A stretch of 64,000 nt of DNA from a virus. The DNA is taken from the IMG/VR virus record IMGVR_UViG_3300045051_000987, positions 49,553 to 113,552 of that record, one strand, 5' to 3'. Position 1 is the first letter of the stretch. The number at the start of each line of letters is the position of its first letter. This document shows positions 14,148 to 37,866 of this stretch, piece after piece. The notes under the pieces were generated by a model. The model was not told the DNA's origin. It saw only the letters and a program-made list of their open reading frames with translations, and did not search any database. Both the position numbers and the translations under genes were made by a program.

Positions 14148-14464
14148 GCCGCACCCACGCACGCCGCGCAGACGGTCGCCCCACGCGCGCGCACGAAGTA
14201 GCGGTGATGCGGGGTCGTGCACCGCACGTGCGCGTCGTACCAAGCGCGGCGCGCGTCGTGGTCGGTGGGCTCGGCCGGGATCAGGCCCTCAGCGATCCGC
14301 GCTGCGATGTCTGCCTCGATCGCACGCGCGAGCTCGACGACCTCAGAGGTCGAGATCGGGGAGGTCTTCGACGTCTCCGATGACGTCGTCCGGTGCGAGC
14401 TCGGCGTTGGGATCACCGTCGAGAACGTCGTCTGTGTCGTCGGCTTCTTCGTCCGGGTCTTCAT
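14144..14464 (-). CDS. Hypothetical protein with C-terminal CxxC, start uncertain
   Basis: The C-terminal half (RRAWYDAHVRCTTPHHRYFVRARG, CAAC) is convincing. The N-terminal ~40 residues overlap in another frame the acidic tail of the sigma-like gene and look like low-complexity shadow (KTRTKKPTTQTT). No ATG, GTG or TTG exists after the neighbour's stop, so either a real overlap or a later start (for example GTG near 14404) applies. Confidence 0.5.
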   Translation of the reverse strand: MKTRTKKPTTQTTFSTVIPTPSSHRTTSSETSKTSPISTSEVVELARAIEADIAARIAEGLIPAEPTDHDARRAWYDAHVRCTTPHHRYFVRARGATVCAACVGAA

Positions 14465-14837
14465 CGGGGGGCGCTTCTCCAGCGCCATCATGCCGCGCGC
14501 CCTCGTCGTCCTCGTCGCCGTCGTCGAAGTCGGGCAGCGGTTGGCCCCTGAGCTTCGCGAACGCGATCGTCTCGATCTGCCGCACGCGCTCACGCGATAC
14601 GCCGATCGCCTGAGCGATCATGTCGAGCGTCGCCCCGTCGGGGAACGTCGCGACGAAGAGCTGACACGCGATGTCGTCCTCGTACCGAGTGACCTTGTCC
14701 ACGATCGGGAGCTGCGCGCGGAGGTCGCGTCGAAGGAAGCGATGCCGCTCGCACGTGGTGACGAGCGACCGCGCGGCTCGCACGATCGGAACACCGCACA
14801 CGCGGCACTTCGGCTCGGTGCGTGCCGTCTCGGTCAT
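14343..14837 (-). CDS. Zinc-finger plus sigma-70 region 4-like protein
   Basis: 164 aa in three parts. Residues 11-32 carry C11, C14, C29 and H32, a likely zinc finger. Residues ~68-98 (DGATLDMIAQAIGVSRERVR, then QIETIAFAKLR) match the helix-turn-helix of sigma-70 region 4, which contacts the -35 element. Residues ~100-164 are a D/E-rich tail. There is no region 2, so it cannot melt a promoter alone. It may act as an activator, an appropriator of host sigma, or one half of a split sigma (inference). ATGA-coupled to the gene upstream. Confidence 0.78.
   Translation of the reverse strand: MTETARTEPKCRVCGVPIVRAARSLVTTCERHRFLRRDLRAQLPIVDKVTRYEDDIACQLFVATFPDGATLDMIAQAIGVSRERVRQIETIAFAKLRGQPLPDFDDGDEDDEGARHDGAGEAPPDEDPDEEADDTDDVLDGDPNAELAPDDVIGDVEDLPDLDL
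14487..14492 (-). promoter_or_regulatory. Class B-like box inside sigma-like gene
   Basis: GCGGCATGATGG. No start codon at 6 nt, but GGAGAAG and the ATG at 14464 follow 15-20 nt later, so it may serve the overlapping 14144-14464 gene. Confidence 0.35.
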
Positions 14838-15139
14838 GCCTTCACGCCGCGGAGCACGACCGCGATCCTACCGCGGGCGTCACGCCGTGCACGCTGTACG
14901 TCGACGGCGCTGAGCGACTCCTCGATCGCCGCGAAGTAGGCCGCCTGCTCCGCGGGCGGGACGGTCGACCAGTGCTCCGCGCAGCACGGGGCGCGTGCTG
15001 AGGGCTCCGCCGAGCACCCGAACGCCGCGCACGTCTCGAGCTCGGTGATGGGCACCACGGCGCCCGAGCGCTCCGCGATCGGCATCGGCCGCAACGGCGC
15101 GAGCTCGCAGCGCGGGCGGAATGGAACGATGCGCCTCAC
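14834..15139 (-). CDS. Hypothetical protein, 101 aa, four cysteines
   Basis: GTG start (MRRIVPFRPRCELAPL) overlaps the upstream stop as GTGA. CAAFGC and CCAEHW may form a metal site. Helical C-terminus. Coupled to the sigma-like gene by ATGA. Confidence 0.6.
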   Translation of the reverse strand: MRRIVPFRPRCELAPLRPMPIAERSGAVVPITELETCAAFGCSAEPSARAPCCAEHWSTVPPAEQAAYFAAIEESLSAVDVQRARRDARGRIAVVLRGVKA

Positions 15140-15585
15140 GCGAACACACCGGGGGGCGGGAGGGTCTCGCGCGCGCGGATCGCATCGCTCGAGCGCTTCG
15201 ACGCTGCGACGATCCACTCGAAGACGTCCTCGTCTCGCTCGATCTCGAGGAGCAGCGACCCGAAGTGAAAGACGCCCATGTGCGGGCCCGAGCACACGAT
15301 CGGGCGCCCCGTCGCGTAGGCGATCCCGACCTCGAAGCCTCCGCCGGTCGAGCCCTTCTTCGGCGTGAGGAACCAGATCAGGTCGGCCGAGAGCACCGCG
15401 GCGATCTCGGCCTGCGCGATCGCGGGGCTGCGATGGTCGGCCGCGTCGGTGGGCGAGCACCCCGCGGAAAGCACGGCGGGCGTCCAGTCGTAGGTGACGA
15501 GGACGCCCGCGGCGCGGAGCGCCTCGATCCATCGAGACGCGCGATCAGCTTCGGTTGATCCCGAGGCGACGTAGACCTTGAGCAC
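15136..15585 (-). CDS. Nucleoside 2-deoxyribosyltransferase-like protein
   Basis: 149 aa. LKVYVASGSTEADRASRWIE, a WT loop, then ADLIWFLTPKKGSTGGGFEVG follow the Rossmann-like pattern of nucleoside 2-deoxyribosyltransferase/YtoQ-type proteins, in which the conserved E of GGxxEVG is near the active site. The family exchanges or hydrolyses bases on deoxynucleosides; a NAD or nucleotide hydrolase role is an alternative. GTG start 6 nt after CATGAT. Confidence 0.75.
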   Translation of the reverse strand: MLKVYVASGSTEADRASRWIEALRAAGVLVTYDWTPAVLSAGCSPTDAADHRSPAIAQAEIAAVLSADLIWFLTPKKGSTGGGFEVGIAYATGRPIVCSGPHMGVFHFGSLLLEIERDEDVFEWIVAASKRSSDAIRARETLPPPGVFA

Positions 15586-15591
15586 GGCGGC

Positions 15592-15597
15592 ATCATG
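15592..15597 (-). promoter_or_regulatory. Class B leaderless promoter -10 (CATGAT)
   Basis: CGCGGCATGATGCC with a 6-nt gap to the GTG at 15585. Confidence 0.6.
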
Positions 15598-15625
15598 CCG
15601 CGACGCCTCGGGCGGTGTCACTCGG

Positions 15626-16063
15626 TCAGAGCGCGGCCTCGAGCTCCGAGAGCGCGGCGAGCGCCCCGAGATCGGCACGACCGATCCGCTTCAACGTGAC
15701 CTCGCGCATCCACGTCGCGACGGGGACCTTCTTGCAGTGCTTCGCGATCGCGGCGCCCTGCTTCGTCGTGCTCTTCACCGAGAAGTTGCTCGCGCCCGCG
15801 AGCGTGATCGCGCGCTTGCCGGTGCCCTTCATGGCGTCGACGCCGAGGCCGAGCCCACCACCGATCGCCTCGAGCGAGGCTTCGCGCACGAGGGACGGGG
15901 GCGAGATCTTGTGCTTGCGGCAGTAGTCGCCGATCGCGATGCCCTGCTCGTCGTTCACTCGGATCGTCACCGAGTGATCGAGCGTCCCACCCTTGTAGAG
16001 CTGCGGGCGCCCCGCGCCCTCGCGCCGTCCGCCCTTCGTGCTCGCCTTCTTCTTCGTCGCCAT
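15626..16063 (-). CDS. Tandem ribbon-helix-helix-like DNA-binding protein
   Basis: 145 aa. Basic lead GGRREGAGRP, then two repeats of strand plus two helices (SVTIRVNDEQGIAIGDYC at ~31-48 and NFSVKSTTKQGAAIAKHC at ~93-110, each followed by a helix). One chain could thus form a pseudo-dimer and bind a palindromic operator, making it a candidate regulator. AGGAAGG stands about 11 nt before the ATG. Confidence 0.6.
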   Translation of the reverse strand: MATKKKASTKGGRREGAGRPQLYKGGTLDHSVTIRVNDEQGIAIGDYCRKHKISPPSLVREASLEAIGGGLGLGVDAMKGTGKRAITLAGASNFSVKSTTKQGAAIAKHCKKVPVATWMREVTLKRIGRADLGALAALSELEAAL

Positions 16064-16079
16064 GGTCTCGGTTCCTTCC

Positions 16080-16613
16080 TCAGTCGGCGAGCGAGGAGCG
16101 ACAGAGCTCCGCGGCCACCGCGTACATGGGGTGTGCGCCCTGCGCGATCACGAGCTCCTCGACGCCGACGGTGCTCACCACCTCGACCGACCAGAACCCG
16201 CGCGCGCGCCTCGAGCGGAGCGATCGACCGTCAGAGCGGTCGACCATCGCGACGAGCCGATCGAGGCTGTCGGGCGTCACGAAGTGACCGGCGTGCGAGC
16301 GCTGCCAGATAGCTTGGAGCTCGATGAAGAGATCGTCGGAGGGACCGAAGGCCGGGAGCTTCTCCGCGGCCAGCACGCCCTTGCACTCGCCTCGCTCACG
16401 CGAGCGCGCCTCGTGCCGGTAGACGTGCAAGAGCGCCTTCCGAATGCGGTCACCGTCGGGGCTGTCTTCACCACCGGGGCCCTCGATGAAGATCGGGGCG
16501 AGCGCGTTGTTCACGAGATGCGACGCGAGGCAGACGCCGAAGAGGGGCATCGCTGCGACGATCATGGCCTCGGTCGCGAGGTGCGCGCGTCGGCGCCAGA
16601 GGGGAGAGCTCAT
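16080..16613 (-). CDS. Hypothetical protein, 177 aa, hydrophobic N-terminal segment
   Basis: MSSPLWRRRAHLATEAMIVA leads into one hydrophobic stretch (~16-38) that could be a membrane segment or a buried helix. The rest is soluble and charged. A GGGGCUUGCCCC hairpin followed by AGGAAGG precedes the ATG, as in the neighbouring class A units. No family recognised. Confidence 0.65.
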   Translation of the reverse strand: MSSPLWRRRAHLATEAMIVAAMPLFGVCLASHLVNNALAPIFIEGPGGEDSPDGDRIRKALLHVYRHEARSRERGECKGVLAAEKLPAFGPSDDLFIELQAIWQRSHAGHFVTPDSLDRLVAMVDRSDGRSLRSRRARGFWSVEVVSTVGVEELVIAQGAHPMYAVAAELCRSSLAD

Positions 16614-16629
16614 CGATTCCAACCTTCCT

Positions 16630-16641
16630 GGGGCAAGCCCC
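16630..16641 (-). promoter_or_regulatory. Leader hairpin before Shine-Dalgarno (GGGGCTTGCCCC)
   Basis: Four G:C pairs closed by a CUUG tetraloop, immediately 5' of AGGAAGG for the 16613 gene. One of seven copies. Confidence 0.75.
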
Positions 16642-16643
16642 GA

Positions 16644-16659
16644 GGCCCCCGCGGGGGCC
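16644..16659 (-). terminator. Terminator-like GC palindrome
   Basis: GGCCCCCGCGGGGGCC, a perfect inverted repeat just after the 16666 gene stop, without a U-run. It may attenuate rather than stop transcription into the next two genes. Confidence 0.4.
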
Positions 16660-16665
16660 GAGAGA

Positions 16666-16992
16666 TCACGCGGCGCGGGAGCCGTTGAGCGACTCGCACG
16701 CCGCAACCGTGAGCTCGAACGAGCTGACGTAGCAGCCGTCGAAGTGCTCGGGCATGCGGGTGATGTCGACCACCGGGCACGCGGCCTTCACCGAGACGAG
16801 GAACGCGACCGCCGTGAGGCGCTCGTCGCGCGTCGCGCCGTGGCGCACGCGGACGTTGATCAGGCCGCGCGCGCAGCCCTTGCCGGCCACAATCGAGAGG
16901 TAGCCGAGGCCGAGGTTCTTCGCGAGCTGGCGGAGCTGCGCGACGTTCTCCGAGCGGGGCATCTCGAGGCCGGTCATCGTGTTCGTCATCAT
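16666..16992 (-). CDS. Hypothetical protein, 108 aa, first gene of a class A unit
   Basis: MMTNTMTGLEMPRSENVAQL. Alpha/beta protein with no known motif. It is the only class A gene without the leader hairpin: the -10 TATACC ends 7 nt before the ATG, predicting a leaderless message. Confidence 0.65.
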   Translation of the reverse strand: MMTNTMTGLEMPRSENVAQLRQLAKNLGLGYLSIVAGKGCARGLINVRVRHGATRDERLTAVAFLVSVKAACPVVDITRMPEHFDGCYVSSFELTVAACESLNGSRAA

Positions 16993-17036
16993 GGATTTAG
17001 GTATACAGCCGACATCCGAAAGGCGCCAGAGAAAAA
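16993..17036 (-). promoter_or_regulatory. Class A promoter 1
   Basis: CTGGCG, an 18-nt spacer, TATACC, then TAAATCC. Serves the 16992 gene directly and the two genes after it. Confidence 0.8.
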
Positions 17037-17058
17037 AGACAGTCGTCGAATCTTTTTT
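17031..17058 (-). terminator. A/T-stem terminator
   Basis: AAAAAAGA ... TCTTTTTT inverted repeat starting at the stop of the acetyltransferase gene. Leftward transcripts end in a U-run. It abuts the class A promoter. Confidence 0.6.
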
Positions 17059-17870
17059 CAGGACGCGTCGATCCGGGCTGTCTCGACCGCCTTGCGCGTG
17101 TGCTTCGTGAGCCCGCGGGCCCAGACCGTCTTGCGCCCCGTCGGCGCCTTGTCCTCGCGCGGGCGAGCTGCGCGGTTCCAACTACCGCCCTTGCCACGGC
17201 GCACGCACACGAAGCCCGACGCGCGCAGGCTGACGCCGCTCTCTTCGTCGAGGATGGACGTGATCAGCTTGTCGTATCCGAGCTCGAGTGCGCGCGACCC
17301 GCACGCCGCGTAGAGCTTGCTCGACGCGTTGCGCCTGAGCGCGGGATGCCCCCACGTCGCGACGCGGAGCACCTCGAGCGTGCACGGCTCGGCCTTCTGC
17401 ACGAGGCGCGACACAGGACGACCGACCATCGCCACGCCGACGCGCACGCCGCCGTTGTAGATGGCGATCGAGAACTTGTGACCTTGCGGCTTGCTGTGGT
17501 GCCGGTGATGGCGATCGACCTCCGCGCACACCTCGGAGAACCACCCATCGTGCGACGCGCACTGCTGGTGCCCCGTCTTGCGCGTGGGGTCGTAGATCTC
17601 TAGGCGCGCGACGATCGTCCCGTCCCCGTCCTCGATGATCTCCATGACCTCGAGACTCGGATCGATGAGCTGCACGACGTCGGCGAGCTCGATCCCGTAC
17701 GCCGCCGCGAAGCCATCGAGCGCGACGGCCTCTCGCTGCTCCTCGCAGCACGGCGCCCACGTCAGGAAGCGCGAGCCCGTGCAGGTGAGCACATCGCACC
17801 CGTAGAGGCTCGCAGCGTCGCCGAAGAGCCACGAGGTGCCGCAGTGCACGCACGAGGGATCGTCGTTCAC
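17058..17870 (-). CDS. XF1762-like GNAT acetyltransferase
   Basis: 270 aa. N-terminal ~60 residues have two CxxC-like pairs (CVHCG and CDVLTCTG...CC). The C-terminal ~150 residues follow the XF1762 phage N-acetyltransferase pattern: GRPVSRLVQ, TLEVLRV, NASSKLYAACGSRALELGYD, then ITSILDEESGVSLRASGF. The substrate is unknown. The GTG start overlaps the winged-helix gene stop as GTGA. Confidence 0.8.
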   Translation of the reverse strand: MNDDPSCVHCGTSWLFGDAASLYGCDVLTCTGSRFLTWAPCCEEQREAVALDGFAAAYGIELADVVQLIDPSLEVMEIIEDGDGTIVARLEIYDPTRKTGHQQCASHDGWFSEVCAEVDRHHRHHSKPQGHKFSIAIYNGGVRVGVAMVGRPVSRLVQKAEPCTLEVLRVATWGHPALRRNASSKLYAACGSRALELGYDKLITSILDEESGVSLRASGFVCVRRGKGGSWNRAARPREDKAPTGRKTVWARGLTKHTRKAVETARIDAS

Positions 17871-18079
17871 GACGCGACCCCGATCGCCTCGCGACCCTTC
17901 GCCGTGATCGCGAACGTGCCCGCGGGCGTCCGCTCGAGGAGCCCGGTCGCAAGGCACCGGCGGAGGTGCTCGACGTCGACCGCCTCGACGCGCGCCGGGA
18001 TCTCCTTCGTCCCGTTCTCCGTCTTCTGGCGGAGCACGAATAGGTTCGTGCTCGTGGGCGTGCCCTTCGGCTTCCTCAC
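17867..18079 (-). CDS. Small winged-helix-like protein, 70 aa
   Basis: VEHLRRCLATGLLERTPAGT followed by FAITAKGREAIG reads as helix, recognition helix and wing. Basic N-terminus. Could be a DNA-binding regulator. ATGA and GTGA overlaps tie it to both neighbours. Confidence 0.6.
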   Translation of the reverse strand: MRKPKGTPTSTNLFVLRQKTENGTKEIPARVEAVDVEHLRRCLATGLLERTPAGTFAITAKGREAIGVAS

Positions 18080-18264
18080 GACGCCACCTTCGCAAGCTCA
18101 GCCTCGACGATCGCGCGGAGCTCCGCGGTGCTGACGCGCGACGCGCGGACGTCGAAGACCTCGCCCTTCTCGCTCTGCGCGGTGCCGCACGAGATGCCGT
18201 CCTCGTCATAGACCGCGTGGAAGAAGCTCTTGCGACCCGTCTTGCTCGTCTCGACCGTGAACAT
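18076..18264 (-). CDS. Small hypothetical protein, 62 aa
   Basis: MFTVETSKTGRKSFFHAVYD, a small beta-rich protein with a helical end. First gene of the second class A unit; AAGGAG directly follows the leader hairpin. Function unknown. Confidence 0.7.
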   Translation of the reverse strand: MFTVETSKTGRKSFFHAVYDEDGISCGTAQSEKGEVFDVRASRVSTAELRAIVEAELAKVAS

Positions 18265-18280
18265 CGTCTCTTCTCTCCTT

Positions 18281-18292
18281 GGGGCGAGCCCC
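18281..18292 (-). promoter_or_regulatory. Leader hairpin before Shine-Dalgarno (GGGGCTCGCCCC)
   Basis: Copy 2, followed at once by AAGGAG of the 18264 gene. Confidence 0.75.
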
Positions 18293-18303
18293 GCGAACCG
18301 TCT

Positions 18304-18345
18304 GATTGATTTAGGTATACACGAGCCCTCCGAAACCCGCCAGGG
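18304..18345 (-). promoter_or_regulatory. Class A promoter 2
   Basis: CTGGCG, 18 nt, TATACC, with TGTATACCTAAATCAATC intact. Drives the 62-aa gene, winged-helix gene and acetyltransferase. Confidence 0.85.
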
Positions 18346-18382
18346 GAAATCGACGAGGCCCGGACGATTTCTCGCCGGGCCC
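18344..18382 (-). terminator. Terminator-like hairpin after ardC
   Basis: GGCCCGG / CCGGGCC stem around a CGAGAAATCGT loop, then TCGTCGATTTCC. Weak U-run. The loop resembles those of the terminators at 19.35 and 20.4 kb. Confidence 0.55.
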
Positions 18383-18391
18383 TTCCTCACC

Positions 18392-19273
18392 TCACGCCGC
18401 TTCGGCTTCCTCCGCTTCCTCCTCGGTCGCGAGAAGGAGATCGACAGCCTTCTCAGCCTCACGCGCGACCGTGAAGATCGCGTGCTTGTCGGCCTTGAGC
18501 ACCTTGATCCACGAGGCGAGGTATTCCGCGTGCTGGATGCGCCCGACCACACCGAGGCGTGCGCACGCGAACGCCGCACCGAGCTCGGCGACGAGCTCCT
18601 CCGTCGCATAGGCGTCGTCGCCGAAGCGCTTCCCGAACGCGCGCGCGTTGCGGCTCTCGTGACCCGTCCAGTGCACGAGCTCGTGCAGAAGCGTCGACTC
18701 GTACTCCTCGCGCGTCGCGAACGCGTCGGCGACCGGCATCCCGATCGTGTCGCTCGATGGCGAGAAGAACGCACGGTCACCACCACGCACGACCTTGGCA
18801 CCGACGCGCGCCGCCACACGATCAGCCTCGCCGTCGACGTGCGTGGGCGCGGGGGTGCGCGCGTCGAGCTCAAGCCCGTCGCACTGCTCGACGTTGAAGA
18901 GCGAGAACGTGCGCGCCATCGGGATCCGCTTCTCGTTCGGCGTGCCCTCGTCCTTCACGAGCCACTTCCAGAACACGATCGACGTCGCCTTCTCGCCCTT
19001 GCGGACCGAGCCGCCGAGATCGCGGGCTTGGTTGAACGTGACCCAGCGCGTGTCAGCGTAGCCCTTCGTCAGCGCAGAGGCCCACAGCATCACGACGTTG
19101 ACACCGCGGTAGGTGCGACCCGTCGACGCGTTCGACGGTAGCTCGAGGCCCGTCGTCGGCCCGACGCCATCGCGCCACGGCTTCACCCAGGGAGCAGTGC
19201 CGGCCTCGAGCGCCTCCACGATCTTCGCCGTCACCTCAGCCGCCACGTCCCGCTTCGTCGTCTCGTTCTTCAT
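18392..19273 (-). CDS. ardC: ArdC-like antirestriction protein
   Basis: 293 aa, the usual family length. N-terminal ArdC domain (KIVEALEAGTAPWVKPW, SNASTGRTYRGVN, YADTRWVTFNQA, VRKGEKATSIVFWK) binds single-stranded DNA in plasmid homologues. C-terminal zincin domain carries HELVH at 197-201 with WTGHESR after it. Known members protect incoming DNA from type I restriction. Monocistronic, with its own class A promoter, leader hairpin and terminator, consistent with expression on entry. Confidence 0.93.
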   Translation of the reverse strand: MKNETTKRDVAAEVTAKIVEALEAGTAPWVKPWRDGVGPTTGLELPSNASTGRTYRGVNVVMLWASALTKGYADTRWVTFNQARDLGGSVRKGEKATSIVFWKWLVKDEGTPNEKRIPMARTFSLFNVEQCDGLELDARTPAPTHVDGEADRVAARVGAKVVRGGDRAFFSPSSDTIGMPVADAFATREEYESTLLHELVHWTGHESRNARAFGKRFGDDAYATEELVAELGAAFACARLGVVGRIQHAEYLASWIKVLKADKHAIFTVAREAEKAVDLLLATEEEAEEAEAA

Positions 19274-19286
19274 CGCTCAGCTCCTT

Positions 19287-19298
19287 GGGGTGAACCCC
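19287..19298 (-). promoter_or_regulatory. Leader hairpin before Shine-Dalgarno (GGGGTTCACCCC)
   Basis: Copy 3. Stem retained with a different loop (TTCA), which supports selection on the hairpin rather than the sequence. AAGGAG follows. Confidence 0.75.
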
Positions 19299-19302
19299 GT
19301 TC

Positions 19303-19344
19303 GATTGATTTAGGTATACAGCCGAACGCCTGAACGTGCCAGGA
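19303..19344 (-). promoter_or_regulatory. Class A promoter 3 (ardC)
   Basis: CTGGCA, 18 nt, TATACC with intact CTAAATCAATC. Confidence 0.85.
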
Positions 19345-19382
19345 GAAAAGACGAGCCCCGTCGATTCCTCGCGCGACTCGTC
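19344..19382 (-). terminator. Intrinsic terminator
   Basis: GACGAG ... CTCGTC stem followed by TTTTCTCC on the minus strand, ending the 19381 gene. Confidence 0.6.
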
Positions 19383-19977
19383 ACTTCCCCATCGCAGCGA
19401 GATCCGCCTCAGCCTTCGCAAGCATCGCGCGGAGCTCGACGACACGGCGCTCCGCGAGCGGACGTTGACGCGCACGCGCCGCGCGCAGGTCGTCGTCGGC
19501 CTGAAAGGCCTTCGCCACCCACAAGCCCGCGGCCCACCCCTGCGCCTCCGCGACGGCACTCTCGAAGGCCACGCCGGTGCGCGCGGGCTTCGAGGTCTGG
19601 TAGGTCGCCGGACGGCCGAGGATGTAGCGCACGAGCGCCACGCCACCGAAGCGGAACACCACCGTCGTCGAGCGGTAGTCGGGGAACGCCGCGAGGCACT
19701 CCGCCGCGAGCTCGAGGCCGGCCTCGTTCATCGGGAGCACCACGAAGCGCGTCGACGTCGTCCCGCGGCACTCGGTGAACGAGCCGCGGAGCGCACGCAC
19801 GCGGGCGCCGAAGCGGACCGGGAACGCGCGATCGTCGTCGCCGAACGAGACCGAGCTGAGCTGTAGCTCGACCACCGCCGTCGACGGTTGGAAGCGGATC
19901 GACTCGGACACCGCGCGCTCCGCGGCCGCGAGCCCACCGTCGGTGTTCAGCGAAGACATGGTCTCGAAGCTCAGCAT
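19381..19977 (-). CDS. Hypothetical protein, 198 aa
   Basis: MLSFETMSSLNTDGGLAAAE; central alpha/beta region, then a C-terminal coiled-coil-like helix (LAERRVVELRAMLAKAEADL). AAGGAG and the leader hairpin precede the ATG although no promoter does, so it is the second gene of the 20381 transcript. Not recognised. Confidence 0.65.
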   Translation of the reverse strand: MLSFETMSSLNTDGGLAAAERAVSESIRFQPSTAVVELQLSSVSFGDDDRAFPVRFGARVRALRGSFTECRGTTSTRFVVLPMNEAGLELAAECLAAFPDYRSTTVVFRFGGVALVRYILGRPATYQTSKPARTGVAFESAVAEAQGWAAGLWVAKAFQADDDLRAARARQRPLAERRVVELRAMLAKAEADLAAMGK

Positions 19978-19991
19978 GGCGGGATCTCCTT

Positions 19992-20003
19992 GGGGCAAGC
20001 CCC
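19992..20003 (-). promoter_or_regulatory. Leader hairpin, intercistronic (GGGGCTTGCCCC)
   Basis: Copy 4, between the 20018 gene stop and the 19977 start, without its own promoter. Confidence 0.7.
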
Positions 20004-20017
20004 GGGAACGGGTCGGA

Positions 20018-20332
20018 TCAGAGCGAGAGGTAGAGGCCGGTCGCCTGCTCGAGCGTCGCGCGGAGGCTGTCCGCGTAGACCATCTCGGAGCGCGAGAGCT
20101 CGGTGATCTCGTAGGTGCGGCGCGCGATCTTGAAGCAGACGACCGTGTATGTGTCGTCGTCGGCGAGCTCGATGCGGACCTTCGTGACGCCCTTCGCGTT
20201 CTTCATCACGCCGAACTGGAGACCACCGTTGCCGTCGAGAGCGACGAGATCCTTCGCGCCGATCATGTACATCGCCGAGCCACCGCCGAGCTGCGCCTTG
20301 ATCGTCTCGGCCACCATCATGTTCGTCGTCAT
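20018..20332 (-). CDS. Hypothetical protein, 104 aa
   Basis: MTTNMMVAETIKAQLGGGSA; small beta-rich protein. AAGGAG 8-9 nt before the ATG and leader hairpin just upstream. Function unknown. Confidence 0.68.
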   Translation of the reverse strand: MTTNMMVAETIKAQLGGGSAMYMIGAKDLVALDGNGGLQFGVMKNAKGVTKVRIELADDDTYTVVCFKIARRTYEITELSRSEMVYADSLRATLEQATGLYLSL

Positions 20333-20347
20333 TGTCTTCTGCTCCTT

Positions 20348-20359
20348 GGGGCAAGCCCC
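20348..20359 (-). promoter_or_regulatory. Leader hairpin before Shine-Dalgarno (GGGGCTTGCCCC)
   Basis: Copy 5, followed by AAGGAG of the 20332 gene. Confidence 0.75.
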
Positions 20360-20380
20360 GCGTTCCGCCGTCACCGTCTC

Positions 20381-20422
20381 GATTGATTTAGGTATACACC
20401 CACCCTCCCGAACGCGCCAGAA
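20381..20422 (-). promoter_or_regulatory. Class A promoter 4
   Basis: CTGGCG, 18 nt, TATACC with intact CTAAATCAATC. Confidence 0.85.
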
Positions 20423-20461
20423 AAAAGATTCGGGGCCCTGACGATTTCTCGCGAGGGCCCC
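20421..20461 (-). terminator. Intrinsic terminator
   Basis: GGGGCCCT / AGGGCCCC stem (20454-20461 with 20432-20439), then GAATCTTTTTT. The best rho-independent terminator seen in the window. It closes the 21.8-20.5 kb unit. Confidence 0.8.
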
Positions 20462-20465
20462 TCGA

Positions 20466-20759
20466 TCACGGCTTCTTCGAGATCTCATGCCCGAGCGCCT
20501 CCCACATGCCCTCCGGCTGATGCCCCTTGTACGCAGGCGCACCCGCCCGATACGCGGCCTCATTCCGGAATACCGCGCGCGCGTCCTCGATCGGAACCTC
20601 GGGGTGCTGCTCGACGTGCGCCGCTGCTCCGACGTCTGCCGCTTCGGGCGTCAGCTCGCGCGGGTACGTCATCGCATCGGCCCACGCTCCCGCGGCGCGC
20701 GCGAGCTCGGGATCGAGCCGTCGAAAGACGGCGTTGTCTCGACGCTTCCGGGCCCTCAC
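20466..20759 (-). CDS. Hypothetical protein, 97 aa
   Basis: GTG start (MRARKRRDNAVFRRLDPEL) overlapping the upstream TGA. Helical, no motif recognised. Last gene before a strong terminator. Confidence 0.6.
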   Translation of the reverse strand: MRARKRRDNAVFRRLDPELARAAGAWADAMTYPRELTPEAADVGAAAHVEQHPEVPIEDARAVFRNEAAYRAGAPAYKGHQPEGMWEALGHEISKKP

Positions 20760-21043
20760 GCGCCCGCCTTGTCGAGGATGCCGGCGATCGACTTCGCGAG
20801 CGCTTCGAGATGACGGCCTTCGAGCTCGCCGTTCTCGATCGCCTTCTCGACGCCCGTGCGAATCGCACCGCCAAGCTCCACGAGCGATTCTTCGTAGCCT
20901 TCGCGGGCCTGCTCGCGCTCGAAGCCTCGATTCTCACCGATGCACTTCTTCGCATCGAGCGTGCGCTCGAGAGCATCGAAGATCACGACGCTCGGGGCCT
21001 TCCACGAGGTCGCGCGGTTGTTCTTCTTCTTGGGCGAGCTCAA
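20756..21043 (-). CDS. Hypothetical protein, 95 aa
   Basis: MSSPKKKNNRATSWKAPSVV; lysine-rich start and a helical rest. A TTG start overlapping the upstream TGA as TTGA fits the chain of coupled genes. Confidence 0.6.
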   Translation of the reverse strand: MSSPKKKNNRATSWKAPSVVIFDALERTLDAKKCIGENRGFEREQAREGYEESLVELGGAIRTGVEKAIENGELEGRHLEALAKSIAGILDKAGA

Positions 21044-21804: not shown

Positions 21805-21846
21805 GATTGATTTAGGTATACACGCGACGTCCCAAGGGCGCCAGAT
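21805..21846 (-). promoter_or_regulatory. Class A promoter 5
   Basis: CTGGCG, 18 nt, TATACC with intact CTAAATCAATC. Drives the 21779, 21300, 21043 and 20759 genes. Confidence 0.85.
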
Positions 21847-22922: not shown

Positions 22923-22928
22923 GTATGC

Positions 22929-22934
22929 ATCATG
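22929..22934 (-). promoter_or_regulatory. Class B leaderless promoter -10 (CATGAT)
   Basis: CGCGGCATGATG with a 6-nt gap to the ATG at 22922. Confidence 0.6.
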
Positions 22935-22949
22935 CCGCGATGCGCGCGC

Positions 22950-23627: not shown

Positions 23628-23647
23628 GTGTTCACCCGGGTGAACAC
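23628..23647. promoter_or_regulatory. Palindrome, copy 4
   Basis: Supplies the TGA stop of the upstream gene and abuts the GTG of the RuvC-like gene; its own GGGTGA is the only ribosome-binding candidate. Confidence 0.9.
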
Positions 23648-28737: not shown

Positions 28738-29114
28738 GACTTCGCCTCGGGCGCGCTCGTCTTCGCACCGCACGCCTTGCACGTGAGGATCGTCGTCCGA
28801 CCGTCGAGGTAGTAGGGCTCGTGGTTCCCGTTCCGATCGGGATGCGTGCACGGTTCATCCCACGCGGGCCGACCATCCTCGGTCGCCTGTTCCTTCACGA
28901 TGTCCGCGCGCCTCTCGCGCTGTCGCGCGATCGAGCTCTTCATCGCGGTGATCTTGCGGATGACGTTCTGCACGATCGGCGAGCGCATCATGAGCCGCGC
29001 ATCGCCACCGCGAAGGAGCGTCGCGAAGAGCTCACCGAGGCCATCGACCTCTTCGGCCGTGAACGACGTCGATGCAGCGAGGCGGACGTCAGCGAGAGGG
29101 GAACGACGCGACAT
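28734..29114 (-). CDS. Hypothetical protein, 126 aa, C-terminal zinc site
   Basis: MSRRSPLADVRLAASTSFTA; helical with a C-terminal CTHPD...CKACG metal site. Begins 1 nt after the RecA-like stop. Function unknown. Confidence 0.65.
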   Translation of the reverse strand: MSRRSPLADVRLAASTSFTAEEVDGLGELFATLLRGGDARLMMRSPIVQNVIRKITAMKSSIARQRERRADIVKEQATEDGRPAWDEPCTHPDRNGNHEPYYLDGRTTILTCKACGAKTSAPEAKS

Positions 29115-29115
29115 G

Positions 29116-30351: not shown

Positions 30352-30367
30352 CCGCCGAACGCACGAA

Positions 30368-30395: not shown

Positions 30396-30426
30396 CACGC
30401 ACGCGCGTGCATCGCAGTCGACGTGA

Positions 30427-32064: not shown

Positions 32065-32165
32065 CGTCTTCTCTCCAACATCACCCCGCGCTCGGCGGAG
32101 CCATCGAGGGCCGTTCGGCCCGTGTACGTCGTAGACGGCCACAGGCACCGTCGACTGACGTCCGC

Positions 32166-32171
32166 ATCATG
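32166..32171 (-). promoter_or_regulatory. Class B promoter with ~100-nt leader
   Basis: GCGGCATGATGCGG. The first start downstream is the SSB-like ATG at 32064 with GGAGAGAAG. Confidence 0.45.
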
Positions 32172-32180
32172 CCGCGCGCG

Positions 32181-32858
32181 CTACCTCCCGCGAAGACCTT
32201 CGGCGAGGGTCCTCAGCGAGCTCGCACGACTCCTCCACGCGGTCGCGAGCTCCTCGACCACCGCGCGCGCGGCGTGGAACTCCTCGCTCCGACGCTCGAG
32301 ACTCCGCACCTCGTCGGGCCACGTCGCCATCACCGCGTCACGCACCTCCTCGAGCGTGGCCTTACCGAGCGACTTCGAGCCCGATGCCTGCGCGGCCGCG
32401 CGCTTCTCCGCTTCGATCTTCGATCGCGCCTCGGTGCGGAGCACCTCGAGCTTGAGCTGGATCTCTCGGTCGGCTTCCTGCTCCGCGAGCTTCGCCGCGC
32501 GCACGAGGATCGACGCCTCGAAGAACCGCCGATCGGCGACCTCGAGCGCTGACGCGATCTCCGCGTAGCTCGTGTGATCGCCGATCGCGAGCTGCGACTC
32601 GAGGCGCTCGAACGTCGTCTTCGGATCGACGTTGATCACGCGCTCGGTGATCGTGCTCCACGGGCCGAGGATCGGCGCCGAGAACGCGCTGCTCGGCGCG
32701 CCGTCGACGTCATCGGTCGGTTCGTGTTCACCCGGGTGAACAGGCTCACGCGCCTTCGGTGGCGGGAGCTCCATCCCCCCGCCCGCGTTCGGGTCGGGGA
32801 TCAGCTCCGCCGCTCGGGTCGCTGCTTCTGTCGTGCTCACCTTCTTGCGCCGTTCCAT
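32181..32858 (-). CDS. Hypothetical coiled-coil protein, 225 aa
   Basis: MERRKKVSTTEAATRAAELI; residues ~95-170 are a long charged helix (AAKLAEQEADREIQLKLEVL and on). Starts with AGGAGG and overlaps the polymerase 3' end by 113 nt. Carries the palindrome in frame (PVHPGEHEP, residues ~39-47). Position between polymerase and SSB suggests a replication or recombination role. Confidence 0.68.
   Translation of the reverse strand: MERRKKVSTTEAATRAAELIPDPNAGGGMELPPPKAREPVHPGEHEPTDDVDGAPSSAFSAPILGPWSTITERVINVDPKTTFERLESQLAIGDHTSYAEIASALEVADRRFFEASILVRAAKLAEQEADREIQLKLEVLRTEARSKIEAEKRAAAQASGSKSLGKATLEEVRDAVMATWPDEVRSLERRSEEFHAARAVVEELATAWRSRASSLRTLAEGLRGR
32724..32743. promoter_or_regulatory. Palindrome, copy 5
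   Basis: TGTTCACCCGGGTGAACA at 32725-32742, inside the 5' part of the coiled-coil gene, immediately beyond the polymerase stop. Confidence 0.88.
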
Positions 32859-35800
32859 CCTGCTCCTCCTTCGCGGGCTCTGCGTCCCGCAGCCGACCTA
32901 CACCGACCACGCGCTCGATCGCGAAGCGCGCGCGCTCACTGCGGGCCACGAGGCCCGCGTCTTCGTCGCGGATGTGGTTGTTGTTCACGCGATCGACGAT
33001 GCGGATCGTGAGCGGCGAGCGACCGGGGTACGCGACCACCGCGGCCTTGAGCGCCTCGACCATGCGCGCGAGCTTCGCCTCAGCGAAGTCGATCGGGAGG
33101 TCAGGGAGGTACGCCGTCGCGACGAGCCCGAGCTCGAGCGGGGGAGGCTTGCGCGGCGCGCGCGGCTTCTTCGGCTTGGCGGGCTTCTGCGCCGGTGCCG
33201 GGCTCACGGTGGGCGTCGAGGCCTCGACGGGCGCTGAGGGCAACGTCGGCGCGGGGCGCGGGGTCTCGAGGTGCGGGCTCGACTGCGGCTCGAAGCCGAA
33301 GAGCGGGAGGCCCTCCATCGCCTTCGCAGGGTCGCGCTTGCGCTCGACGCTCGCGATCTCCTTCTCGATCGCGGCCGCGAGCTTGCGACGGCTCGCCGCC
33401 GTCTCCTTCCACTTCTCGGTCGGGTAGACCGCATCGAGGAGGCGCGCAGTCGGTGGGAGGATCTTCTTGTCCCAGTAGTAGTCGCGATCGATGCGCTCGA
33501 GCGCGCCGGGGTCGTACGCCGGCACACCGATGAGCTTGCCGTCGTCATCCTCGTCGTCTTCGGGTCGACCGGCGATCAAGTACTCGATGCGCGTGCCCTC
33601 GGTGACCTGCACGCCGCGCTCGACGAGGATCTTCGCCACGCGCACGTGCACGGGCTGCGATGCGATCTTCCGCTCGGCCCCGCACCGCGGACAGAGCTTC
33701 GACGTCTCCTCGTCGTAGTGCGTGCTCCCGAACTCGTAGCCGCACGACTTCATCCCCTTCTTCGTCTTCGTGCCCGGCGTCTGGATCTTGTTCGTGCACC
33801 GCGGGGACGTGAAGCGCGTTGCGTACTCGCCGAGGTTCTTCACCGACTGCGAGAGCACGATCTCCTCGATCGTGAGCGGAGCTTCGAGGATGCGTGCACG
33901 CCACCGCGCCACGAGCTCGTGGAAGACGTCGGCGCTCGGGGGAGGACGATCGATGTCGAGGAGCAGCTCGATCACCTCGTGCTGCATGTCGCGCGCGAGC
34001 TTGAGCGCGTCGCCGCGCTTGTACTCGAGCCCCTTCACCTCGGGCTTGAGGTCGGCCTTCGCGACCTTGCCCTTCTTCATCGCGAAGCGCGCCGCATAGC
34101 GCTTCTTCCCGACGAGCACGAGACGCCGGAAGCTCTTCTCGAAGTCGAGCTTCACCCGGCTCTCGAGGCACCCCATGCGCGCGAGCAGTGGAGGCCAGCT
34201 CTCGTTCAGCGAGGCGACGATGTTGCCGAAGAGCTTCATCTCCTCCGCGACGCGCTCAGGATCGCGCACGGCCGGCGAGCTCTTCGCCATCGCGAAGACC
34301 GAGTCGGTGTCGCCGTAGATCGCCTCGAGCTCTCCCGTCGCTTCGACGGTCGCCATCACGTGTCGAAGGAGCCACTGACCCGTGAGCGTCACGCCTCCCG
34401 CGACGGCTGGCTCGAAGAAGCGCGTGAACGACGATCCGACGATGCCGTAGAACGAATTCGCGATGATCTTGTACGCCGCCGAGAGGCGCTCGTACTTGCT
34501 CCGCTCGGTCGATCCGAGCTCCGCCGCCTCGGCCTTCTTCGTGTACTCCGCGCGGTTCGCTACGAGCGTGTCGAGCGCCTCCGCGAAGATGCCGCGCCGA
34601 TCAGTGCGGAAAAACGTCTCGCGCTCCTTCATCGGGAGCTTCGCCATCGGCACACCCTCGGCCTGTAGGCGCTTCACGTGGAACGGGGGCACGTACGTCT
34701 CGAGGCTCATGTTCCACGAGCGCATGATCGACGGGTACATGCCCGCGAAGTCGCACACGTGAACGTCGTCGAGCGCGCCCGTGCGCTTCGGCTCGAGCAC
34801 GAAGGCGCCGTCGTACTGCTCCGGCTCGGGGCCGTCGTCGTAGGTCTTCGTCGGCCATCGGTAGCCGCGCGCCGCGCCGAGCGCGAGGAGGTAGCCGTCG
34901 CCCTGCTGAGCTGCGCCGAGTGACCTCGAGTCGGGGAAGCAGCGCGTCACCTGACACACCGCGATGTGCAGCGCGACGAAGCCCGTCTTCGCCTCGATCT
35001 TCGCCATGAGAAGCGTGTCGTCTTCGTTGTACGAGAGGAGCTTCGCGCGCTGCTCGCCTCCCGCGGCCCACGCCTCCCACGTGTGAGCGCTGTCGAAGTC
35101 GGTCTTCCCCTCGCCGACGACGAACTGACCGATCGCGTTCAGGCTGAACGAGCTCCGCTCCTCGCCGCTCTCGTGGGCCTGGTTGTACTTCTTGAAGGCC
35201 TCCATGTGATCGAGCCAGCACCACCGATTCCAGATCGGGAGACGCCCGTTCTCGAGCTTCACGCGGAGCTTGTTCATCCGCATCTCGAGGCACGGGAAGT
35301 CGAAGGCGTCGCCGTTCCACGAGAGCACGAGGTCGAAGCCGTGGAGCTGCTCGAAGAGCTCACGGATCAGCTCGCGCTCGGACGCGTCGGTGTCCTCTGC
35401 GAGGATCGCGCTCGCGACCTTCTTCACCGAGCCGTCGACGAGCGTCGCGAGGCACCACGAGAGGATCCGAGCCTTGCCCGAGGTCATGTCGTCGAAGCGC
35501 TTGCGCGAGTCGACCTCGAGATCGAGGTAGACGCTGCGCGGCGTCCCGATCGAGATCATCGGCATGTCGGAGAGGAAGCGACGCAGCGGCCCGACGTCGC
35601 CCTCGAAGATCCCGCCCTGGTAGAGCTTCGTGTCGTCCTCCTCGAAGAGGACATCCATCTTCCTCGCCTTGATCGCTTCGACGATGCGCTCGTTCACCGC
35701 CTTGCGCGCGAAGCGGTTCTTGAAGTCGACGCGCGTGTAGCCGTTCACCGCATCGTGCTCGACGCGCACGACATCGCGAGAGCGCGAGAGCGCCTGTCGA

Positions 35801-35931
35801 TCGCGCTCATCCATCCCGCGGAAGAACGACGTCCAACGAGCGGGGAAGCGGCGCGCAGACACGTGATCGCCATCGCGCTCGACGAGGAACACGTGCTCGT
35901 CGTCAGACCAGCCGGAAACGATCTCGGACAT
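32746..35931 (-). CDS. Family B DNA polymerase with zinc insert and C-terminal extension
   Basis: 1061 aa. Exonuclease motifs YLDLEVDS (D137, E139), SWNGDAFDFP and SYNEDDTLLM, and polymerase motifs DFAGMYPSIMRSWNMS (A), YKIIANSFYGIVGS (B) and IYGDTDSVF (C), plus KKRYAA, are intact, so proofreading and synthesis are expected. A four-cysteine insert (CTNK...CGYEF...CPRCG) follows the palm. The last ~150 residues, after a PAPAQKPAKPKKPRAP linker, form an extra domain (IVDRVNNNHIRDEDAG) I cannot place. ATG 6 nt after CATGAT. Confidence 0.95.
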   Translation of the reverse strand: MSEIVSGWSDDEHVFLVERDGDHVSARRFPARWTSFFRGMDERDRQALSRSRDVVRVEHDAVNGYTRVDFKNRFARKAVNERIVEAIKARKMDVLFEEDDTKLYQGGIFEGDVGPLRRFLSDMPMISIGTPRSVYLDLEVDSRKRFDDMTSGKARILSWCLATLVDGSVKKVASAILAEDTDASERELIRELFEQLHGFDLVLSWNGDAFDFPCLEMRMNKLRVKLENGRLPIWNRWCWLDHMEAFKKYNQAHESGEERSSFSLNAIGQFVVGEGKTDFDSAHTWEAWAAGGEQRAKLLSYNEDDTLLMAKIEAKTGFVALHIAVCQVTRCFPDSRSLGAAQQGDGYLLALGAARGYRWPTKTYDDGPEPEQYDGAFVLEPKRTGALDDVHVCDFAGMYPSIMRSWNMSLETYVPPFHVKRLQAEGVPMAKLPMKERETFFRTDRRGIFAEALDTLVANRAEYTKKAEAAELGSTERSKYERLSAAYKIIANSFYGIVGSSFTRFFEPAVAGGVTLTGQWLLRHVMATVEATGELEAIYGDTDSVFAMAKSSPAVRDPERVAEEMKLFGNIVASLNESWPPLLARMGCLESRVKLDFEKSFRRLVLVGKKRYAARFAMKKGKVAKADLKPEVKGLEYKRGDALKLARDMQHEVIELLLDIDRPPPSADVFHELVARWRARILEAPLTIEEIVLSQSVKNLGEYATRFTSPRCTNKIQTPGTKTKKGMKSCGYEFGSTHYDEETSKLCPRCGAERKIASQPVHVRVAKILVERGVQVTEGTRIEYLIAGRPEDDEDDDGKLIGVPAYDPGALERIDRDYYWDKKILPPTARLLDAVYPTEKWKETAASRRKLAAAIEKEIASVERKRDPAKAMEGLPLFGFEPQSSPHLETPRPAPTLPSAPVEASTPTVSPAPAQKPAKPKKPRAPRKPPPLELGLVATAYLPDLPIDFAEAKLARMVEALKAAVVAYPGRSPLTIRIVDRVNNNHIRDEDAGLVARSERARFAIERVVGVGRLRDAEPAKEEQDGTAQEGEHDRSSDPSGGADPRPERGRGDGAPATEGA

Positions 35932-35937
35932 CGCGTC

Positions 35938-35943
35938 ATCATG
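35938..35943 (-). promoter_or_regulatory. Class B leaderless promoter -10 (CATGAT), polymerase
   Basis: GGCGGCATGATG with a 6-nt gap to the ATG at 35931. Confidence 0.62.
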
Positions 35944-35950
35944 CCGCCGG

Positions 35951-35984
35951 AACGACAACGGCCCCGAGCGCGAGCTCGAGGCCG
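35951..35984 (-). terminator. Intrinsic terminator before polymerase promoter
   Basis: CGGCCTCGAGC / GCTCGGGGCCG stem with a four-base loop, followed by TTGTCGTT. It separates the 37.2 kb gene from the polymerase unit. Confidence 0.65.
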
Positions 35985-36010
35985 AAGGCGTCAGGACGAT
36001 CCTTGTGGGT

Positions 36011-37207
36011 TCACTCGACGCGGATGAACGACACCGCGACGCCGACGATCGCGCCGTCCTTGTCGTGCTTGAGCGCGATGCGCTGCTTCACGTTCTCGCT
36101 GATGTGGAGCTCGGCATAGGCGTCGTCCTTGTGGGCCTGGATCGGACGACCCGACGCCGCGCTGCGCCACGCGATCACCTGAGGCTTCGATCCGACCTTC
36201 GCAAGGAGCGTGATCTCGTTGCCGCTCTTCTTCGGCGCCGCGGTCTTGTCCTTCGCGCTCGAGCTCGGCGCCTTCGGCTTCGTTCGCCCGTTGCCCGACT
36301 CGTTCGCCTCCGCGCGGTGGCGCTCGATCTCCTTCGTCGACGCACCCGCGGCCGCCGCGTTCAGCGCGTCCGTGCGCGCCTCGGAGTCGGTGATGCCCGA
36401 GATCAGCGCGAGCTTCTTCGAGCCGATCTTCTCGAACGTCGCGCGATCGAACTGCTTCACGATGTCGATCAGCCGGTAGGCGAGCGTGCGGCCGATGTCG
36501 AGCTCCTTCTCGACGAAGGTCTTGAAGCTGTCGTGCCCGTTCGCCTTCCACCGACTGTCCTTGTAGATCTCGGTGAGCTCGAGGCCGAGGTCGAAGCTGT
36601 TCATCGCGAGGTTCGTCTTGAGCTCGTTGATCCGAGCGACCGACGCATCGAGCTTCTTCTTCGCCGCCTCGATGCCACCCGTCGACGCCGTAATCTCGGT
36701 CACGGGCTCGGGCTTCTTCGCACCCTTCGCCGGCTTCTCGGCCTTCGCCTTCGGCTGAGGAGGGGTCTCCTCGGTCTCCTCGGTCTTCGCAGTCGTAGTC
36801 GCGGCCGCTTCCGCAGCCTCCGCCGCGCCCGTCTCGTCGGAGGGCGTGCCCTCGTCACCGCAGAAGGGGCAGAAGTCGGTGTCTTCGGTCGAGACCTCGC
36901 CGCAGACGTTCTCGCACTTGATCATCGAGTCTTCGCTCATGCCCTCGAGCCGCTTGCCGAGCTCCTTGCGCACGAGCTCGAGGAGCTTCGACGTCGGCGC
37001 CTTCGCGTCGAACTTCACCTCGTACTTCTCGAGAGCGCGCGCGAGCGATTCGCGATTCGCGGGCGTCTTGCCGTCCGAGAGCATCACCACCTCGGCACCC
37101 TTGCCGCCCTCGATCACCGAGAGGTTGTTCGGGTTCGGCTTCTTCGCCGCTCCGCTCTTCTTCGCCACCACCGCCGGAGCCGCCGCCTGATTCTTCTTCG
37201 TCGCCAT
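36011..37207 (-). CDS. Putative DNA-binding protein, 398 aa, zinc ribbon and HTH
   Basis: N-terminus basic (MATKKNQAAAP...), then a CENVCG...CPFCG zinc ribbon near 100-120, an acidic linker, and at ~210-260 a helix-turn-helix-like stretch (SFKTFVEKELDIGRTLAYRL) of the kind seen in phage/plasmid replication or partition regulators. Basic linker and a small beta domain follow. AGCGGAGGAAGAG fixes the ATG at 37207 rather than 37240. Next to the sigma gene, so possibly a transcription co-factor. Confidence 0.62.
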   Translation of the reverse strand: MATKKNQAAAPAVVAKKSGAAKKPNPNNLSVIEGGKGAEVVMLSDGKTPANRESLARALEKYEVKFDAKAPTSKLLELVRKELGKRLEGMSEDSMIKCENVCGEVSTEDTDFCPFCGDEGTPSDETGAAEAAEAAATTTAKTEETEETPPQPKAKAEKPAKGAKKPEPVTEITASTGGIEAAKKKLDASVARINELKTNLAMNSFDLGLELTEIYKDSRWKANGHDSFKTFVEKELDIGRTLAYRLIDIVKQFDRATFEKIGSKKLALISGITDSEARTDALNAAAAGASTKEIERHRAEANESGNGRTKPKAPSSSAKDKTAAPKKSGNEITLLAKVGSKPQVIAWRSAASGRPIQAHKDDAYAELHISENVKQRIALKHDKDGAIVGVAVSFIRVE

Positions 37208-37236
37208 CTCTTCCTCCGCTGCTTCGATCGTGTTCT

Positions 37237-37866
37237 TCAACGCGCCTCTGAGGCGCTCGTCACTCTGCGGACCGCGGCGCCGACCATCCGGCGCGCGTGT
37301 CCTTCGGAATCCATGCGATACGTGAGCCGCGCGTCGAAGTCCGCGTAGATCGTCATCGCCGTCTCGTCGATGCTGCGCCCCTCGAGCACGAGCTCGACCG
37401 CGAGCCGCTCAAGGCCCTTGAGCTCGCTCACGAGGCGCGCAGCACGCTCGCGCATCTCAACGATCGTCTCGAGACTCACGCCCTCGGGCTCGATCGCTTC
37501 GAGCGCTTCCACGACGTCGACGGCGACCTGACGAGCAGGATCGCGACGGCGCGGGTCGGGGTAGCCGGCGACCTGACGAAGGCGCCGCTGACACGCACGA
37601 CCGAGCTGCGCGTCGACGTAGGGCACGAGCGCCGCGCGCTCCGGATCCCACGAGTCGACAGCGCGCCACAGCGCGACGAGCATCTCCTGGATCAGATCCT
37701 CAGCGTCGAGGCTCGTCTGCCCGCTCCACATCCACACGCGGAGGAACCGCTTCGCGCGGAGCTCGAGCGCGGGGCGGATGTCGCGCGTGAGCTGATCGAA
37801 GGTGAGGGTGCCCACCCGAAGCGCCTCGAGCGCGCTTCGGTGGGATGCGAGATTGCTCGGACGCAT
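37237..37866 (-). CDS. Phage sigma factor (sigma-70 family, ECF-like size)
   Basis: 209 aa. Residues ~50-98 (SLDAEDLIQEMLVALWRAVD, SWDPERAALVPYVDAQLGRA) match sigma region 2, which binds core polymerase and melts the -10. Residues ~145-170 (ELKGLERLAVELVLEGRSID) resemble the start of region 4. It would direct polymerase to one of the phage promoter classes; which one cannot be told from sequence. Start is 2 nt after the UvrD-type helicase stop. Confidence 0.78.
   Translation of the reverse strand: MRPSNLASHRSALEALRVGTLTFDQLTRDIRPALELRAKRFLRVWMWSGQTSLDAEDLIQEMLVALWRAVDSWDPERAALVPYVDAQLGRACQRRLRQVAGYPDPRRRDPARQVAVDVVEALEAIEPEGVSLETIVEMRERAARLVSELKGLERLAVELVLEGRSIDETAMTIYADFDARLTYRMDSEGHARRMVGAAVRRVTSASEAR

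Follow-up and report, generated by a model that had tools for sequence, protein, structure and literature searches.

A sigma-like protein and a separately encoded region-4 protein in a phage genome with three classes of promoter-like sites

We analyzed a 64,000-nucleotide stretch of viral DNA (the window), comprising bases 49553-113552 of the 113,552-base record IMGVR_UViG_3300045051_000987 (G000), for two sigma-related proteins, P0002 and P0001, and for the promoter-like sites that they might serve. In the gene calls used for the neighbourhood comparison, 149 of 150 genes were on one strand. The whole 113.5-kb record contained one match each to Sigma70_r2 (P0002) and Sigma70_r4 (P0001). An earlier reading of this DNA, the original prediction, had placed region 2 and region 4 of a sigma factor on two separate genes, and the Pfam matches, which fall in the two expected open reading frames (ORFs), confirm this claim. 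The two proteins and their parts were located as follows.

37237..37866, minus strand: P0002, 209-amino-acid sigma-like protein (ORF; Pfam Sigma70_r2; alignment of relatives)
37573..37722, minus strand: region 2 of P0002, residues 49-98 (Pfam Sigma70_r2, E 7.9e-9)
37243..37473, minus strand: helical domain at the C-terminus of P0002 (residues 132-208), occupying the position of a region 4 (AlphaFold2 model, predicted local distance difference test score, pLDDT, about 74-86)
14343..14837, minus strand: P0001, 164-amino-acid stand-alone region-4 protein (ORF; Pfam Sigma70_r4)
14547..14657, minus strand: region-4 helix-turn-helix (HTH) of P0001, residues 61-97 (Sigma70_r4; primary sigma factors in PDB)
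14742..14807, minus strand: CxxC..CxxH motif of P0001 (CRVC..CERH, residues 11-32; sequence)
14346..14534, minus strand: residues 102-164 of P0001, a doubtful acidic tail (sequence; third-position GC falls here)
14144..14491, minus strand: +1-frame ORF of 115 amino acids that overlaps this tail, C-terminal CTTPHHRYFVRARGATVCAAC with a Cys-rich end (runs past the P0001 stop)

The gene caller placed the P0002 start at GTG 37815; the ATG at 37866 was favoured because the N-terminal stretch is shared with the relatives. P0002 scored 35.6 bits against Sigma70_r2 over residues 49-98 (cut-off 24), and no Pfam region 4 was found in it at E ≤ 1. TIGR02937 covered residues 50-170 with 33.0 bits, below its cut-off of 42.9, so that the earlier description of this gene as having a clear region 2 and a weak region 4 was right. 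The AlphaFold2 model (pLDDT 80.0, predicted template modelling score 0.51) comprised a confident region-2 bundle and a second helical domain at residues 132-208. The 50 matches listed by Foldseek for this model were all sigma factors or sigma-bearing complexes. VIA-align paired residues 7-103 of the model with AlgU (Z 8.6, 88 aligned residues, root-mean-square deviation (rmsd) 3.6) and residues 7-209 with sigma-E (Z 8.4, 153 aligned, rmsd 14.6, domains turned); the match to T4 gp55 had Z 8.5 (111 aligned, rmsd 10.7). Z values of about 8.4-8.6 among helical proteins are no proof, and the last domain may or may not be a diverged sigma4.

P0001 matched Sigma70_r4 with 36.8 bits (E 2.7e-9, cut-off 24.1) at residues 61-97, and no region 2 was detected by the Pfam scan. 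Its helix GVSRERVRQIETIAFAKLR aligned with the primary sigma factors of solved structures, the recognition helix being almost identical. The N-terminal CxxC..CxxH matched no known zinc family over its cut-off, and CRVC..CERH is a plausible, putative metal site. A direct search for P0001-like proteins found none in viral contigs, and a direct search with P0001 gave 12 phage records at E ≤ 1, matched over the HTH region. The strong region 4 and the lack of region 2 ascribed to this gene were thus confirmed by Pfam, whereas its zinc finger is reduced to a plausible motif and its acidic tail became doubtful. In the tail frame, third-position GC decreased from about 0.9 to 0.5-0.75 after window position 14505; in the overlapping frame it was 0.9-1.0 and still high beyond the P0001 stop codon. 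The rise in the other frame is partly trivial, since acid codons begin with G, but the fall in the tail frame is not. The overlapping ORF had no family match over a cut-off.

The P0001 gene is the last of a three-gene row opened by a class C site (window 15591-15601, described below). The first gene of this row (window 15136-15585) is nucleoside 2-deoxyribosyltransferase-like (Pfam E 6.3e-8) and might serve nucleotide salvage or modified bases.

The P0002 gene lies in a row that was also compared among related contigs.

37869..40034, minus strand: UvrD-type helicase gene, directly upstream of the sigma gene (family match; order kept in relatives)
36011..37207, minus strand: Cys-motif protein between the sigma gene and PolB (no Pfam match)
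32746..35931, minus strand: family B DNA polymerase (PolB), the lineage marker (family match)
40089..40129, minus strand: putative promoter of the helicase-sigma-Zn/HTH-PolB row, a CCTAAATCAATC box abutting TGGACA-N17-TAGGTT

With P0002 as the query, one relative was found (30% identity); with PolB, 15 related contigs were recovered at 33-54% identity, including that relative. A PolB search of genome contigs found no relative. The window's record and its 15 best PolB relatives form the lineage records (G000-G015); three more distant PolB matches (G016-G018) were searched and excluded from the co-occurrence count, and seven further remote PolB loci also stayed outside it. The relatives keep the sigma gene between the UvrD-type helicase and PolB. 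A region-2-like protein stood just ahead of the Cys-motif gene and PolB in G000, G001, G002, G003, G005, G006, G008, G013, G014, and G015; at the same place, G010 had a divergent region-2-like protein and G011, a record of very divergent sequence, an unclear one. G009 and G012 had no region-2-like protein at the place before PolB, and the contigs of G004 and G007 begin inside the sigma locus. Of ten aligned sigma orthologues, eight matched Pfam region 2 and none matched region 4 (E ≤ 0.1). Besides its syntenic sigma, G005 encodes a second, full sigma-like protein, whose single frame holds both region 2 and region 4 (record positions 87662-88324; L049, L053).

Eight lineage records (G001, G003-G009) and contig L069 encode a region-4 family, A5, with the pattern DPWxxLEW - region 4 - CxxC..CxxC; all eight aligned members matched Sigma70_r4. 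P0001 differs from A5 in several respects. Its Cys motif is N-terminal and it has no C-terminal ribbon of the A5 kind; its gene is on the same strand as PolB, whereas the A5 gene is on the opposite strand in seven of eight lineage members (the exception is G009); and its neighbours are different. By eye, the P0001 motif made a good circular permutation of the relatives' ribbon; this candidate was rejected, as the ribbon profile ranked P0001 seventh of 1000 proteins with a non-significant E of 0.43. The C-terminal ribbon of the overlapping ORF was likewise rejected as the relatives' lost ribbon (ribbon profile 2.7 bits, E 8.8). P0001 is not clearly orthologous to the relatives' region-4 protein, and the G010 region-4 protein is yet another type.

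Sigma and region-4 genes were both present in 7 of the 16 lineage records (G000, G001, G003, G005, G006, G008, and G010 with aberrant versions). Four records had a sigma gene without a region-4 match (G002, G013, G014, G015), two had a region-4 gene on a contig that does not cover the sigma locus (G004, G007), one had a region-4 gene without sigma at the expected place (G009), and two had neither or were unclear at the places examined (G011, G012). Since none of the records is certified to be complete, absences weigh little here.

More than one promoter class had also been anticipated, and three, A, B, and C, were present in the genome. Their labels as early, middle, or late derive from gene content only. 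Class C is a strict 11-base element, GCGGCATGATG. The window has 16 such sites against 0.07 expected, and every one of them is on the gene strand. The shorter word GG[CT]ATGATG occurred 18 times on the record's gene strand, 14 times in intergenic DNA, and 8 of the 18 were exactly 14 nt ahead of a start codon. This short fixed distance suggests leaderless transcripts. No enrichment of TTGAC-type matches was detected upstream of class C, either for all 18 sites (p 0.11-0.20) or for the 14 intergenic sites (p 0.076-0.18). The ten class C gene products scanned comprised a helicase, a recombinase, a methyltransferase-like protein, and a DNA polymerase (PolB), and six had no match. The following class C sites were located by pattern search.

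15591..15601, minus strand: class C site opening the row of three genes of which P0001 is the last
35937..35947, minus strand: class C site ahead of PolB
45775..45785, minus strand: class C site ahead of the DNA helicase
22928..22938, minus strand: class C site with a start codon 14 nt downstream
13610..13620, minus strand: class C site ahead of the methyltransferase-like gene

Over the whole record, class B, GCTAnnnTCG, had 13 intergenic and 3 coding sites on the gene strand and none on the other strand. In intergenic DNA (9,159 of 113,552 bases), 0.39 sites were expected under a first-order model. The window count of 6 was not unusual by number (5.12 expected from whole-window shuffles), so that the case for class B rests on place and strand; the sites were picked by pattern, and their fixed columns are no evidence. 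Among intergenic GCTAnnnT sites, 8 of 17 sit 14-16 nt ahead of a start codon. TTGAC-type matches 15-19 nt upstream were mildly enriched, with p 0.003 for the 17 sites and 0.028 for the 13 strict ones. Ten class B gene products were scanned: one matched baseplate wedge, one matched head maturation protease in part, one matched a family with no assigned function, and seven had no match. Class B includes late genes, yet lateness is not proved for all of its genes. The pattern search gave the following class B sites.

57806..57815, minus strand: class B site GCTACCATCG; a baseplate-wedge-like gene starts 15 nt downstream
60431..60440, minus strand: class B site with a start codon 15 nt downstream
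55351..55360, minus strand: class B site
50896..50905, minus strand: class B site

Class A, CTGGC(G/A)..N18..TATACCTAAATCAATC, is of the -35/-10 type and precedes small genes that are early-type by content. Eight sites were found in the record and five in the window, where 0.00 were expected. The word gave three matches in viral contigs; the two inspected were AT-rich and apparently unrelated, and none of the three records had a PolB match. The class A sites from the pattern search were as follows.

16994..17029, minus strand: class A promoter-like site
18308..18343, minus strand: class A promoter-like site
19307..19342, minus strand: class A promoter-like site
20385..20420, minus strand: class A promoter-like site
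21809..21844, minus strand: class A promoter-like site

The CCTAAATCAATC box lies at window 40118-40129 and in four class A sites (18304-18315, 19303-19314, 20381-20392, and 21805-21816). Since a copy lacking the TATA part directly precedes TGGACA-N17-TAGGTT (window 40129), the box may be an operator; being common to class A and to the promoter of the sigma-PolB row, it is likely a putative regulator site. G002 has its own class-A-like promoter ahead of its helicase-sigma-PolB row.

RNA polymerase beta had no match in the record, whereas the control was positive in 14 of 14, and the host polymerase is therefore presumably used. The T7-type RNA polymerase search of the record also gave no match, but its control was silent everywhere, which makes it uninformative. 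The phage probably redirects host RNA polymerase in stages. The reading that we prefer, with a probability of roughly 45%, is that P0002 is a phage sigma factor directing the host polymerase to class C and that P0001 is a co-regulator and not an obligate half. P0002, a small sigma-70-family factor resembling the extracytoplasmic function (ECF) type, would be made from the helicase-PolB row and would bind the host core RNA polymerase. It would take the polymerase to class C, which precedes non-virion genes, those for replication among them, and it would make no sequence-specific -35 contact. Class C is assigned to P0002 because of its region 2, the strict single element without -35, and the precedent of phiEco32 gp36. 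Since the P0001 gene is third in the row behind a class C site, P0001 would be made after P0002. As the product of a class C operon, P0001 would most likely bind -35-like DNA, the beta flap of the polymerase, or both; its primary-sigma-type helix suggests a role at the flap or at promoters with a -35 element. In this role, it could tune -35-bearing promoters (class A or B, served by host sigma or P0002). The earlier suggestion that each protein recognizes its own promoter class is unlikely for P0001, because a protein without region 2 cannot alone define a -10 class.

Several results weigh against this assignment. Motif searches of seven relatives found no class C equivalents, so covariation does not support linking class C to P0002, and 4 of the 18 GG[CT]ATGATG sites are inside called genes. 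By its sequence, class C could be read by the host sigma, as CATGAT and TATAAT agree at 4 of 6 positions, or by a host alternative sigma. The C-terminal domain of P0002 may be a diverged, working region 4, in line with the TIGR02937 stretch to residue 170. The P0001 model was poor (pLDDT 58.9), with weak VIA-align matches (Z at most 4.1). Finally, window 14144-14534 is compatible with an acidic tail, an overlapping gene, or a frameshift, and the P0001 tail may be misread.

The theme of phage sigma appropriation is known. According to passages of PMC8948821, phiEco32 gp36 has no region-4 homology, and transcription from its single-element promoters begins 6-8 bp downstream. P0002 with class C is likened to it by these features; the phiEco32 element is tAATGTAtA, in contrast to GCGGCATGATG, and that phage is described as using one element for middle and late genes. 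As far as the parts of PMC9429907 go, SPO1 gp28 and gp34 are the factors for middle and late genes; they were likened by role, not sequence. Microbacterium phage Pumpernickel gene 49 has an HTH like that of P0001, with no region 2 in the gene's annotation. What distinguishes P0001 from the stand-alone region-4/HTH proteins in other phages is its N-terminal CxxC..CxxH, and the A5 family is distinguished by a C-terminal ribbon. No paper on a phage family with region 4 and a Cys ribbon was found within open-licence full texts.

As an alternative, P0001 could be a stand-alone protein that uses its region-4 HTH as an ordinary DNA-binding regulator or to compete with the host sigma, unrelated to the action of P0002. 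Such proteins are common in phages outside the lineage, with at least 281 confirmed matches to one pattern; among 79 matches examined, 37 have fewer than 110 amino acids ahead of the HTH, too short for region 2. Additionally, the relatives' A5 gene faces a Fis-like HTH gene (Fis-like by eye, without family search) in four of the six surroundings read (G001, G003, G006, G008), a frequent arrangement of regulators. The primary-sigma-like recognition helix, however, suggests binding to -35 DNA or the flap over an arbitrary operator, and we regard this reading as rather unlikely.

It is unlikely that the host primary sigma serves all three classes while P0002 acts on few genes or on the host only. 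Class A, with its -35-like element and TATACC, and class B, with TAnnnT and a weak -35 signal, are consistent with a host sigma. The relatives also carry housekeeping-type elements (TTGAC..TATATC in G002; TGGACA-N17-TATAGT in G005), and phage sigma factors can be dispensable, as stated in part of PMC9429907. Against this stand class C, strict in its 11 bases and without a -35 signal, and the place of the sigma gene in the replication row, which is kept across divergent phages.

A true two-subunit sigma, in which P0002 would supply region 2 for the -10 element and P0001 region 4 for the flap and -35, both only jointly active, appears distinctly unlikely. It would resemble Bacillus SigO-RsoA, whose regions 2 and 4 are likewise divided between two proteins; the SigO-RsoA genes, as described in passages of PMC8103513, form one operon, whereas those of P0001 and P0002 are unlinked, 23 kb apart. 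The domains are complementary: the sigma orthologues yielded no region 4, while region 4 occurs in P0001 and all eight A5 members, in none of which region 2 was reported. Both genes coexist in 7 of 16 records, and in G004 and G007, which show only region 4, the contig ends short of the sigma locus; the weak TTGAC-type enrichment upstream of the 17 class B sites also fits. However, four records have the sigma gene without a region-4 match, though their contigs may be incomplete, and G009 is the reverse case. P0001 differs from A5 in ribbon place, strand relative to PolB, and neighbours. In the model, P0002 appears to retain a folded C-terminal domain in the place of region 4, and class C, the best phage-specific class, offers region 4 no -35 signal. 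Of the original proposal that the second protein supplies -35 contacts for a split sigma, the separate domains stand, and an obligate split is possible but unlikely.

The original prediction had cited T4 gp55 with gp33 as a precedent, and passages of PMC2988020 describe that pair itself as a thinkable split sigma. The T4 pair resembles the present one in combining a region-2-like factor with a separate second protein; gp33 is a flap-binding sigma-4 mimic working with gp55 (parts of PMC2988020 and PMC7892883), and flap binding is only predicted for P0001. Late T4 promoters consist of a -10-like element, according to passages of the same two papers, and such a lack of a -35 element was observed here for class C only, which P0002 would read. 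According to passages of PMC2988020, gp33 is not discernibly similar to sigma in sequence; in P0001, by contrast, the helix that reads -35 is near consensus. T4 is further described as needing the gp45 clamp; no DNA_pol3_beta clamp (PF00712) was found in the phage's own record, where gp45-type families were not searched. It is very unlikely that P0002 alone reads -10-only promoters and, joined in trans by class C-made P0001, gains -35 recognition and switches the host polymerase to late class B as a middle-to-late timer.

Split and -35-less phage sigma factors are known from few systems. A sigma without recognizable region 4, often accompanied by a stand-alone region 4 and here by three promoter classes, would allow testing how sigma specificity is divided over two proteins.

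Repeated palindromes were also observed. The near-perfect palindrome GTGTTCACCCGGGTGAACAC has 11 window copies at no more than 2 mismatches (0.00 expected), many near gene borders; they are candidate operator, terminator-like, or partition sites.

Window 3401-3420, 8433-8452, 12870-12889, 23628-23647, 32724-32743, 40157-40176: GTGTTCACCCGGGTGAACAC copies
Window 45788-45807, 45837-45856, 51171-51190, 55326-55345, 63670-63689: GTGTTCACCCGGGTGAACAC copies

Three relatives have palindromes of their own. In G003 (L159-L164), the 26-bp palindrome AAGTTGTAACCTCGAGGTTACAACTT occurs, for example, at record position 896, and its half-site word is present in 13 intergenic regions. The 23-bp palindrome TGAAATACCGCTAGCGCTTTTCA of G006 (L171-L176) stands ahead of many genes, together with a TAGnnT that precedes the start codon by about 6 nt, and looks like a repressor site on leaderless promoters. 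G008 (L142-L147) has a palindrome of the type GTATCCCAG..CTGGGATAC, for example at record position 28982, which is repeated between genes.

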